Source: Halorubrum sp. GN11_10-6_MGM (GTDB taxonomy: Archaea > Halobacteriota > Halobacteria > Halobacteriales > Haloferacaceae). Taken from it: 64,000 nt of DNA. The stretch spans positions 1 through 64,000 of the forward strand of contig NZ_SGUC01000006.1 in NCBI RefSeq assembly GCF_005435165.1, written 5' to 3'. Both the position numbers and the translations under genes were made by a program. Below are positions 47,461 through 50,360 of this stretch, one piece after another. The notes beneath the pieces were generated by a model that saw only the letters and a program-made list of their open reading frames with translations, was not told the origin of the DNA and ran no database searches. Within the stretch, counting starts at the first letter, position 1. The number at the start of each line of letters is the position of its first letter.

Positions 47461-48237
47461 ATGGATTCGGACACCGTCGCCTTCGACGTCGACGACCGCG
47501 GCGTCGCGACGATCACCGTCGACCGACCGGAACAGCTCAACGCGCTCACCGTCGAGACGCTGGAGGCGATCGAGGACGCGCTCGACGAGGCCACCGACCG
47601 CGAGGCGCGCGCCCTCGTGATCGCCGGCGCGGGCGACGACGCGTTCGTCGCGGGCGCGGACATCTCCTACATGGTCGACCTCTCGACGCCCGAAGCGCAG
47701 GCGTACGCCGAGCTCGGCCACCGCGTCGCGGACGCGATCGAGACGTTCCCCGCGCCGACGATCGCCGCGATCGACGGGTACGCGTTCGGCGGCGGCTGCG
47801 AGCTCGCGTTGGCCTGCGACCTCCGAGTCGCGGCCGAGAGCGCGGTCCTCGGGCAGACGGAGATCGACCTCGGGATCATCCCCGGCTGGGGCGGCACGCA
47901 GCGACTTCCGGCGCTGGTCGGCGACGAGGTCGCCCGGCGCCTGATCTTCCTCGGCGAGCGGATCGACGCGGCCGAGGCGGCCGAGGTCGGCTTCGTCGGG
48001 GAGGTCGTCGCGGACGACGCGTTCGACGAGCGGATCGACGAGCTGACTGGCGAGCTGGCGGCGAAGCCCGCGACCGCGCTGCGCGCCGCGAAGGAGGCGC
48101 TGAACGCGGCCGGCGACGGCTCGGCGGCGACCGGGCTCGCCCTCGAACGCCGGGCGTGGGCCGGCCTGTTCGGCACGCACGACCAGCGCGAGGGGATGGA
48201 GGCGTTCTTAGCGAAGCGCGAGCCGGAGTTCGAGTAG
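47461..48237 (+). CDS. enoyl-CoA hydratase/isomerase family protein
   Basis: The 258-residue crotonase-fold protein has both oxyanion-hole regions (AFVAGADISYMVD and GYAFGGGCELAL), and the catalytic Glu block GQTEIDLGIIPGWGGTQRLP. It probably hydrates enoyl-CoA in fatty or amino acid breakdown. Length and motifs are canonical. ATG at 47461. Confidence 0.93.
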   Translation: MDSDTVAFDVDDRGVATITVDRPEQLNALTVETLEAIEDALDEATDREARALVIAGAGDDAFVAGADISYMVDLSTPEAQAYAELGHRVADAIETFPAPTIAAIDGYAFGGGCELALACDLRVAAESAVLGQTEIDLGIIPGWGGTQRLPALVGDEVARRLIFLGERIDAAEAAEVGFVGEVVADDAFDERIDELTGELAAKPATALRAAKEALNAAGDGSAATGLALERRAWAGLFGTHDQREGMEAFLAKREPEFE

Positions 48238-48299
48238 ACGGACCCACAATCGAATCGGAACAGCGGTGTGGTGGCGCGCGCCTCCGAGCGGCCGTCAGG

Positions 48300-48526
48300 C
48301 CGTGAGGAGCGCGTGCGAGGGACGCCGTGAGCGACGGGCGACCGGAGGGAGCCCGAAGCGAACGGCGAGGCTGGGGAGGTGTGAGGTGCGGTGCGGTCCG
48401 GGGCGGGATTCAAAGGGGCAGCCACGAGGCCGCGGTAGGCGACGTAAGCACTGGAAGGAGCGAACGGAGTGAGCGACTGAAGCGCGCAACGAGCGTACCG
48501 CGGCCTCGTGGCTGGGGCTTTGGCGG
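48300..48526 (+). repeat. repeat element A, with 19-bp perfect hairpin stem
   Basis: The arm starting at 48366 (CGAGGCTGGGGAGGTGTGAG) leads into a hairpin: CAAAG (48411-48415), GGG, CAGCCACGAGGCCGCGGTA (48419-48437), a 58-base loop, its exact complement at 48496-48514, GGG, CTTTG (48518-48522). An inverted second copy lies at 49341-49590. The left limit is approximate. Confidence 0.85.
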
Positions 48527-48654
48527 TGTTCGCCGTCGGTCAGCAATCACTCACTGATGACCGAATGGTTGGGGCTGTGGTGGTGAGACACACGGCGTCA
48601 GTTCGGCTTTCGTTCCGTGCCACCGTCTCTCACCGCGATCCGGCAACCGCCACG

Positions 48655-48664
48655 CTTTATTAAT
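48655..48664 (+). promoter_or_regulatory. TATA box of hpt
   Basis: CTTTATTAAT is centred about 25 bases before ATG 48684. Confidence 0.6.
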
Positions 48665-48683
48665 CCGCCCGAGTACCCGCGAC

Positions 48684-49253
48684 ATGGACCAGTTGCGGCA
48701 GTCGCTCCTCGACGCGCCGATCATCGAGAAAGGCGAGTACCAGTACTTCGTCCACCCGATCAGCGACGGCGTCCCCATGCTCGAACCGGAGCTACTCCGG
48801 GAGATCGTCATCCGGATCATCCGGAAGGCGGAGCTGGAGAACGTCGACAAGATCGTCACCCCCGCGGCGATGGGGATCCACATCTCCACCGCGCTCTCGC
48901 TGATGACCGACATCCCGCTCGTCGTCATCCGCAAGCGCCAGTACGGCCTCGACGGCGAGGTCCCGCTGTTCCAGGAGACCGGCTACTCCGAGTCGGAGAT
49001 GTACATCAACGACGTCGAGGAGGGCGACCGCGTGCTCGTGCTCGACGACGTGCTCTCGACGGGCGGCACGATGAAGGCCATCCTCGACGCGCTCACCGAC
49101 GAGGTCGGCGCGGAGGTCGTCGACGTCGTCGCCGTGATCAAGAAGGCAGGCGACAACGAGCTCGACGACACCGACTACAACGTGAAGACGCTGATCAACG
49201 TCACCGTCGAGGACGGCGAGGTCGTGATCGTCGACGCGCAGGGCGACGAGTAA
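48684..49253 (+). CDS. hpt: hypoxanthine/guanine phosphoribosyltransferase (archaeal type)
   Basis: The 189-residue purine phosphoribosyltransferase has the PRPP loop [13 protein letters not shown] (about residues 117-129) and the archaeal Hpt start [39 protein letters not shown] and [13 protein letters not shown] support salvage of hypoxanthine or guanine; adenine use cannot be excluded. The gene sits alone between two inverted hairpin elements. Confidence 0.9.
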
Positions 49254-49340
49254 GCCGGTATCCGTAGATCGACGAGGAACATCACCACGTTTCCAACCGG
49301 TCAGTTATTAACGACTGACCTCAGCAACGCGGGGACCATT

Positions 49341-49590
49341 TCCGAAGCCCCAGTCGCGGGGACTCGCGCGGCTCGGTGCGCTCCTCGCTCAGTCGCTGTC
49401 GCTCCTTCGCTGCGGTGCTTCCGTCGCCGTGCTTCGTCCTCGCGACTGCCCCTTCGAGTCCCACCCCGCCCAGCAACGCAACCGCAGCCTCACACCTCCC
49501 CAGCCTCGTTGGCGGCTCCCGGTGGTCACCGCCAACTCCCTCGCGCGGTGCTGCTCGCCCGCAAAGCGGCCTCGCAGGCACGCGCCACCG
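49341..49590 (-). repeat. repeat element B, inverted copy with covarying hairpin
   Basis: Read on the plus strand: CGAAG (49343-49347), CCC, CAGTCGCGGGGAC (49351-49363), a 72-base loop, GTCCTCGCGACTG (49436-49448), CCC, CTTCG (49452-49456), then the arm ending near 49508 (complement of CGAGGCTGGGGAGGTGTGAG). Similarity to element A is clear in the arm and hairpin; loop similarity is patchy. Confidence 0.85.
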
Positions 49591-49604
49591 CACCGCGAAC
49601 GCGC

Positions 49605-49612
49605 TTATAAAA
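49605..49612 (+). promoter_or_regulatory. TATA-like element before the DJ-1-like gene
   Basis: TTATAAAA would place transcription start near 49635, giving a leader of about 48 bases before ATG 49683. A second, weaker T-rich site (CTTTTGT, near 49650) fits a leaderless start. Confidence 0.45.
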
Positions 49613-49682
49613 CCCGCGTCGCCCCGCGTCGCTGCCGGGCGCGGGCCGCTTTTGTGTCGCGGTCGCGAACGTGGATCCGGAC

Positions 49683-50360
49683 ATGACTAGCGCGCTGTTC
49701 GTCGTGAGCGAGGAAGGGTACTGGGCCGAGGAGTGTATCGAGCCGCTGACGACGCTCGAATCCGAGGGCGTCGACGTGACCGTCGCGACGCCCTCCGGGT
49801 CGCCGCCGGTCGTCGACGAGCGTTCCTTAGAGCCGGACGCCGCGGGCGGCGAGGAACGGGTCGCGGAGCTCCGCGAGGTCGACGAGAACCACCCAGGTCT
49901 CAACGATCCCGAACCGATCGCGACGGTCGACGCCGACGGCTACGACGCCGTCGTCTTCCCCGGCGGCCACGGCACGGTCTGGGACGTGAACCAGGACCGC
50001 CACGCCCGTCAGCTCCTGCTCGACGCGGTCGCGGGCGAGGAGAGCGTCGCCCTCGTCGTCTGTCACGCCGTCGGCATCCTCGCGTTCACGCGCGAGGCCG
50101 ACGGGACGCCGCTCGTCGAGGGGCGCTCCGTGACCGGCTTCCCGAACGCGTGGGAGGAGAACATCGTCGACGACCACGACGTGATGCCGGACGGCCGGAA
50201 GCTCCCGTACTGGGTCGAAGACGAGGTCGTCCTCGCGGGCGCCGAGTGGGACGCCGAACTCGACGCCGACACGAGCGTCACCGTCGACGGCGACCTCATC
50301 ACGGCCCGCGGCCCCGGCTCGTCGGCCGAGGCGGCCGCGACGCTGCTCGACGAACTGTAG
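49683..50360 (+). CDS. DJ-1/PfpI family protein (Hsp31-like)
   Basis: The 225-residue protein has the nucleophile elbow VVCHAVG with Cys127-His128, and PGGHGTVWD upstream, as in class I glutamine amidotransferase-like proteins of the Hsp31 branch. These act as glyoxalase III, deglycase-like or chaperone proteins. The acidic Glu before the elbow, needed for Cys activation in DJ-1, would be Glu14/Glu17 in the EEGYWAEE region. ATG at 49683 is preferred to GTG 49671. Confidence 0.9.
   Translation: MTSALFVVSEEGYWAEECIEPLTTLESEGVDVTVATPSGSPPVVDERSLEPDAAGGEERVAELREVDENHPGLNDPEPIATVDADGYDAVVFPGGHGTVWDVNQDRHARQLLLDAVAGEESVALVVCHAVGILAFTREADGTPLVEGRSVTGFPNAWEENIVDDHDVMPDGRKLPYWVEDEVVLAGAEWDAELDADTSVTVDGDLITARGPGSSAEAAATLLDEL

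Follow-up and report, generated by a model that had tools for sequence, protein, structure and literature searches.

The two non-coding elements flanking hpt in the window (the whole 64-kb stretch of Halorubrum DNA analysed here) belong to a multi-copy family spread across the class Halobacteria, in which one hairpin, P3, keeps its fold while its stems change in sequence. Many haloarchaeal genomes hold tens to more than 100 copies of this one folded element, which has no credible match in Rfam. It is tentatively read here as an ancient family of imperfect hairpins, scattered between genes, that would work at the DNA level, like the REP sequences and BIMEs of bacteria, in which case archaea too would have dispersal of the REP kind, driven by a different enzyme. 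On balance it seems probable that the single-strand fold of this class-wide family has been selected since early haloarchaeal evolution and that the family has its own enzyme or binding partner, either as a Y1-free archaeal REP-like system or as a cis-acting RNA, dispersed en masse, whose framework is a GA/GA rod. The choice between RNA and DNA is directly testable, given the strong covariation, the available covariance model and the genetic tractability of haloarchaea.

Two oppositely oriented elements around hpt

Copy 1 runs on the forward strand from 48271 to ~48588, and copy 2 on the reverse strand from ~49612 down to the end of hpt (Table 1). Such a pair of opposed elements with a common arm had been described in an earlier note on this DNA, and the two arms do match exactly. 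Along the G-rich strand both copies have the same order of modules: P1 and P2 come first, then a 20-nt arm, which a G/T-rich spacer separates from P3 and its GGG/GGG internal loop, and last a tail. The elements start earlier than claimed, since two more hairpins, P1 and P2, precede the arm, from 48271 in copy 1 and from ~49590 in copy 2, and the hairpin that was said to follow the arm is present but does not touch it, the G/T-rich spacer lying between them. What had been called a "58-72-base loop" is in fact paired, forming a rod in which GA/GA mismatches separate steps of 2 bp.

Table 1. Modules of the two elements and the gene between them, in coordinates of the window
Feature	Position	Strand	Basis or remark
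Copy 1 hairpin P1, stem with GA/GA mismatch	48274..48316	+	fold
Copy 1 hairpin P2, variable stem immediately 5' of arm	48323..48367	+	fold
Copy 1 conserved 20-nt arm	48366..48385	+	exact match; 124 genome places at <=3 mismatches
Copy 1 G/T-rich spacer and foot	48386..48410	+	sequence; 25 nt
Copy 1 hairpin P3, GGG/GGG loop and GA/GA rod	48411..48523	+	123.5 bits, covariance model R1; folds
Copy 1 tail, degenerate second ...TTGGGGCT... box, without TTTATAA	48524..48588	+	sequence
hpt, phosphoribosyltransferase (context)	48684..49253	+	ORF; matched in 52/52 Halorubrum genomes; name from the earlier sequence-only note
Copy 2 tail with TTAATAA, reaching the hpt stop codon	49254..49341	-	sequence
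Copy 2 hairpin P3	49342..49456	-	109 bits, covariance model R1; folds
Copy 2 G/T-rich spacer and foot	49457..49488	-	sequence; 32 nt
Copy 2 conserved 20-nt arm	49489..49508	-	exact match
Copy 2 hairpin P2	49508..49536	-	fold
Copy 2 hairpin P1	49546..49590	-	fold
Copy 2 TATA-like TTTTATAAG upstream of P1	49604..49612	-	such motifs in 71/179 copies at -45 to -12

The TATA-like motif of copy 2 is nearly palindromic, so it may equally serve the adjoining forward-strand gene. When the 64 kb were scanned with covariance model R1, which was built from 44 copies of P3, the next best score after these two copies was 18.5 bits; as both sit in the model seed, their scores indicate that they stand out and are no independent discovery. 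RNA folding against shuffled sequences gave z -6.3 for copy 1 (0/200 as good) and a moderate z -2.5 for copy 2 (3/200 as good). Compared pair by pair, the GGG/GGG loop is identical in both copies, as had been observed, and the compensatory changes reported between them are real, although P3 holds four and not three: an outer A-T/G-C, a C-G/T-A, an A-T/G-C and a deeper C-G/A-T. Two copies alone could not demonstrate selection on folding, because hairpin-templated correction can homogenise the arms.

Fold, covariation and folding strand of P3

P3 begins with a foot whose last letters are GGGA(C/A)T; a 5-bp stem, the GGG/GGG mismatch, a variable stem, a rod in which 2-bp steps alternate with GA/GA mismatches, and a small apical loop that is often GNA follow. 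RNAalifold, applied to 29 copies, paired the former loop as 2-bp steps between purine mismatches and found compensatory change in 20/34 pairs. Directly 5' of P3 the foot reads GGGTGGGACT, GGGTGGGAAT, GGGCGGGACT or similar in most of 76 copies, and the form GTGGGAYTGAA (for example in L258 before 1501) appears to resemble the 3'-terminal part of type I-B CRISPR repeats of haloarchaea. Among 188 copies, P1 could be placed in 170 and P2 stems in 120, and P3 was not placeable in 58; P1 and the arm were found in 179 copies, and the P3 end in 122 of those 179. The register of the P1-P2 alignment is doubtful.

Covariation was judged against a null made by scattering the inferred substitutions randomly over the tree, following the principle of R-scape in our own code, with E<0.05 taken as significant. 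The Halorubrum set comprised the 146 of 175 P3 copies that are 100-125 nt long; it shares loci with the seeds of model R1, as does the source-genome scan. Nine pairs were significant in this set, eight of them in the predicted structure, while the ninth (24-89) extends that helix in register; covariation is also seen in 2-bp steps that have mismatches on either side (columns 39-74 and 51-63). Outside Halorubrum, 19/19 significant pairs fell within the structure (66 copies, 18 genomes, 17 genera); this set was chosen by sequence anchors with no pairing filter, three further copies without the right end being dropped, and its loci had first been found with the covariance model, which somewhat favours paired sequences.

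The mismatches are retained alongside the stems. Of the 130 copies (among 188) in which P3 could be placed with the triplets left free, 122 have GGG left and right, and the left GGG is present in 65/66 copies outside Halorubrum, where the right GGG was part of the selection anchor. GA is kept at four columns in 123 to 141 of the 146 copies. The apical loop is predicted to be of 3 nt in 107/146 Halorubrum-set copies and 55/66 outside, and is GNA in 87/146 and 47/66, respectively; in DNA, 3-nt loops of the GNA type and GA pairs in tandem are both highly stable. Selection on the fold of P3 is supported. The earlier note had proposed this, and had named a lack of covariation in further copies as a result that would speak against an RNA; what was found instead is covariation above a tree-aware null, both in and outside Halorubrum, with GGG/GGG conserved.

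Wobble pairs indicate which strand folds. In P3 cells of the Halorubrum set G.U outnumbers A.C by 121 to 39, an earlier tally stood at 50 to 13 (a single position supplying 22 of the 50), and the ratio outside Halorubrum is 39 to 16; among inferred changes, 72 were from Watson-Crick to G.U and 34 from Watson-Crick to A.C. Unpaired columns changed at near-equal rates (C>T 43 over 1,265 cells; G>A 109 over 3,452). Since G.U exceeds A.C without such a bias in unpaired columns, it is the G-rich strand of P3 that folds. P2 is without this bias (14 to 12). Folded DNA tolerates G.T pairs as well, so the excess does not choose RNA over single-stranded DNA.

Spread, sites and variants of the family

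In the source genome the arm occurs at the 124 places given above, compared with 0 for a reversed control; the first 100 of these places are listed by position, and 76 of 89 arm contexts had enough flank for further comparison. At <=2 mismatches it is present in 52/52 Halorubrum genomes, with 9 to 195 copies each. Across the order the arm is patchy (46/243 genomes). The loci of an exact-pattern scan, at least 117 and counted among the matches listed, lie mostly in Halorubrum, and also in Haloparvum, Halorussus, Halobellus and two unassigned MAGs. A covariance-model search of Halorubrum genomes, as suggested in the earlier note, returned 101 P3 matches in the source genome at E<=0.01, at least four of which duplicate another match from the opposite strand. 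At E<=0.001 the model matched 144/194 genomes and 55/65 genera of the class Halobacteria, in a survey that scored the best 19 candidates per genome, so that counts are floors. At E<=1e-4, with the best 150 candidates scored per genome as in the source-genome scan, there were 3 to 87 copies in 18 non-Halorubrum genomes, chosen for having matched, and within Halorubrum from 0 (G041) and 1 (G026) up to at least 150 (G022), where the scoring limit was reached. Since copy number differs this widely inside a single genus, the family is dispensable and able to multiply. Of the REP/MITE-like haloarchaeal family that had been suggested, the REP-like part holds, extended from Halorubrum to the class, and the MITE in the strict sense is not supported, a further point against it being that every arm is on the main contig in two genomes. 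A Halorubrum-only MITE is rejected on the class-wide presence of P3, with few partial plasmid matches and no virus matches.

Two hpt loci, L207 (G026) and L216 (G031), share 94% identity over 941 bp, yet their genomes hold 1 and 117 P3 matches, respectively; the likeness concerns the hpt region alone and is no proof of close genomes. G041 has 19 arms but no P3 at E<=1e-4, and arm and P3 are thus separable. In contigs C41, C60, C116, C120, C125, C146, C149, C153, C169 and C179 of the source genome, arms lie in the first 20-160 bases (among the matches listed), and the repeat probably breaks Halorubrum draft assemblies at some contig ends.

A search of Rfam with 47800-50200 of the window gave no match at E<=1, and five loci gave two weak matches to miRNA families only, both in L273 and far under gathering scores. 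A search of mainly open-access literature found no description of the P3 family, so an earlier one elsewhere as a plain repeat is possible; the motif strings occur in none of the top-ranked papers.

With our own gene caller, no copy overlapped a gene in the Halorubrum set (0/189, being 0/76 in the source genome and 0/113 in other named genomes) or outside it (0/26). Convergent gene pairs hold 76/188 Halorubrum-set copies, compared with 175/870 of all neighbouring pairs and 11/179 arm-free gaps of >=150 nt, and the figure outside Halorubrum is 5/26. Orientation to neighbouring genes is not consistent: copies follow a same-strand gene in 107/188 cases and are otherwise placed in 81/188 (13 and 13 of 26 outside), and among tandem sites of the Halorubrum set 49 have the element running against the genes and 31 with them.

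Sites are inherited with their orientation. At the hpt locus of 29 other Halorubrum genomes (of 51), the upstream arm is present in 13, always '+', and the downstream arm in 15, always '-'; in four genomes (L221, L228, L229, L234) crotonase adjoins hpt, yet there is no upstream copy. Across 117 pairs of loci matched by their flanks, some of which were entered once in each direction, the arm lies at the same site in 89, with the same orientation in 87/89; this is no unbiased rate, because many loci were fetched for holding an arm. At a given site, species differ from one another by entire stem and loop modules, so that copies probably also convert one another. Upstream of hpt in L226 (G006:C82), CTGTCTCTTATACACATCT stands beside an N and is presumably a leftover sequencing-library adapter.

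Every arm is on the main contig in both genomes examined for this (69/69 in G017 and 64/64 in G025), for which the chance under an even spread, from rounded genome sizes, is ~9e-10 and ~6e-4, respectively. Along the chromosome spacing is random in the two genomes tested, with neither regular spacing nor orientation runs. BLAST with one copy matched 0/50,697 phage records and 7/72,556 plasmid records, none covering 80%; one P3 from outside Halorubrum matched two plasmid records, and exact arm and core patterns gave no match in viral contigs. Empty sites were found in diverged form only, none of them precise, and neither a terminal inverted repeat nor a clear duplication of the target was observed, TTTATAA-like motifs lying near both ends in part of the copies.

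The architecture varies. Outside Halorubrum P3 often occurs without P1, P2 and the arm, to which it is joined in Halorubrum and some other genera; an TGGGGAGG arm lies upstream of P3 in 5/30 non-Halorubrum loci (L265, L267, L269, L276, L281). There, 24/78 P3 copies face an opposite P3 foot across 22-28 nt (downstream control 3), by a looser definition under which both members of a pair can count; a stricter one gives three pairs among 26 copies, five loci having no anchor. TATA-like motifs stand 5' of P1 at a fixed place (-45 to -12) in 71/179 Halorubrum-set copies, and 151 tails hold 63 occurrences at 20 to 34 nt. The loop core of P3 is forward in 168 of 189 copies, inverted in four, both in one and unrecognised in 16; 3/4 of the inverted cores also have a changed left GGG, and L046, L210 and L226, with loop inversion and perfected or altered arms, look like hairpin-templated correction events. 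In L017 (G000:C146, first 150 bases) four tandem arms at 35-bp spacing end at the contig start, and the arm with the preceding half of P2 can undergo tandem amplification. The P3 loops of L010, L030, L209, L214 and L217 contain inserted small hairpins of other repeats, TTCGAGA...TCTCGTCATCACGA-like and TCAGAACG...CGTTCTGA-like, and the tails of L021, L056 and L223 consist of ~55-70 bp tandem repeats, each with TTTATAA and a ...CTGGGGCTTYGG box.

Possible roles and comparison with known systems

For the DNA-level role tentatively preferred here, the G-rich strand would fold when single-stranded, and the foot and mismatched hairpin would together form the substrate of a putative DNA-processing enzyme; it is proposed that such recognition keeps the mismatches while the stems drift in matched pairs. 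The enzyme, which need not be a Y1 (IS200/RAYT) transposase, would have multiplied the family in some lineages, with loss in others, and most copies would now be fixed and inherited. This is favoured by the covariation inside and outside Halorubrum, the kept mismatches and strand-specific wobble of P3, the lack of a fixed gene orientation, head-to-head P3 pairs at 22-28 nt as in BIMEs, loop inversion (4/189), which is a DNA event, the range of copy number within one genus, and the 3-nt GNA apex loops. Against it, no copy was seen to move: copies keep their site and orientation between genomes, and hardly any plasmid or virus record contains one; P2 is without G.U bias, and the G.U excess and GA tandems suit RNA equally. 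The over-used convergent sites and the TATA-like box in 71/179 Halorubrum copies fit a transcribed element. The main rival is a family of structured RNAs, with a rather low probability. The G-rich strand would then be transcribed, from its own promoter or in UTRs, with the P3 rod binding a protein or protecting mRNA ends, and many copies would be expected because the element would act in cis. Covariation with G.U as the tolerated mismatch agrees with an RNA, as do the TATA-like box that many Halorubrum copies have 15-30 nt 5' of P1 and the excess of convergent sites over both arm-free gaps and gene pairs. However, convergent sites are not favoured outside Halorubrum, the orientation to genes is inconsistent, the head-to-head spacers listed outside Halorubrum are without TTTATAA, and there is no credible Rfam match. 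Transcription starts ~26 nt downstream of a TATA-like box, and a start at that distance would cut into P1.

It is unlikely that the elements are chromosome-organising sites, at which an SMC-like, gyrase-like or nucleoid protein binds the duplex or an extruded cruciform. A protein organising the chromosome would account for confinement to the main contig and for head-to-head pairs of fixed spacing, and the inherited sites agree with it, but plain vertical inheritance also yields such confinement, spacing along the chromosome is random and without orientation runs in the two genomes, the near-absence of P3 from G041 and G026 marks the element as dispensable, and strand-specific wobble speaks against a duplex cruciform. 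The remaining explanation, a passive repeat in which gene conversion between copies and hairpin-templated arm correction produce covariation without selection, is already disfavoured and very improbable. Although the wholesale difference of stem modules at one site between species and the inverted loops of L046, L210 and L226 would suit it, such correction would erase GGG/GGG and GA/GA, yet both are kept; the 2-bp steps between mismatches covary, the G.U bias is strand-specific, and pairing is kept across genera despite different stem sequences.

Among known systems, the structured RNAs of Rfam share with P3 a covariation-supported single-strand fold, but none is a credible match. The PATE, MITE and SMR repeats of Haloquadratum (PMC3119063) are likewise high-copy haloarchaeal repeats without a transposase; PATEs are described there as having near-terminal palindromes and being tied to IS605-type transposons, whereas P3 reaches 87 and 59 copies in genomes without Y1, by a search with PF01797 only. 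The bcr1-bcr18 repeats of the Bacillus cereus group are also intergenic, 100-400 bp long and present in up to 130 copies (bcr1), according to PMC6542083 and PMC3446304, which give them a recurring TTTAT motif, a proposed mobility like site-specific recombination, transcription of about half in the strains studied and, for some, conserved secondary structure. They are compared here by description, and the P3 family belongs to another domain of life, with TTTATAA flanking only part of its copies; as in bcr repeats, this motif might mark a place of integration.

The closest likeness is to REPs and BIMEs, which according to PMC3733652 are high-copy, dispersed, extragenic imperfect hairpins with internal mismatches, G-T stem pairs and head-to-head dimers, as in the P3 family; alternative complementary stems are common to both. 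The same paper reports that RAYT cleaves single-stranded REP and that strengthening the REP stem abolishes cleavage. P3 is larger (~113 nt, with 100-125 nt in 146/175 copies, compared with 20-40 bp), its foot ends GGGA(C/A)T where REPs have GTAG or CGTC, neither of which ends any of the feet listed, and its fold is kept across a whole class, unlike that of REPs as far as this source describes them (PMC3733652). The Y1 transposase domain PF01797 is present in seven of the nine genomes searched and absent from G075 and G149, whose 87 and 59 P3 copies rule out a RAYT-driven REP. The family would therefore work like REP yet is not filed as REP, because its tag and size differ and two high-copy genomes are without Y1.
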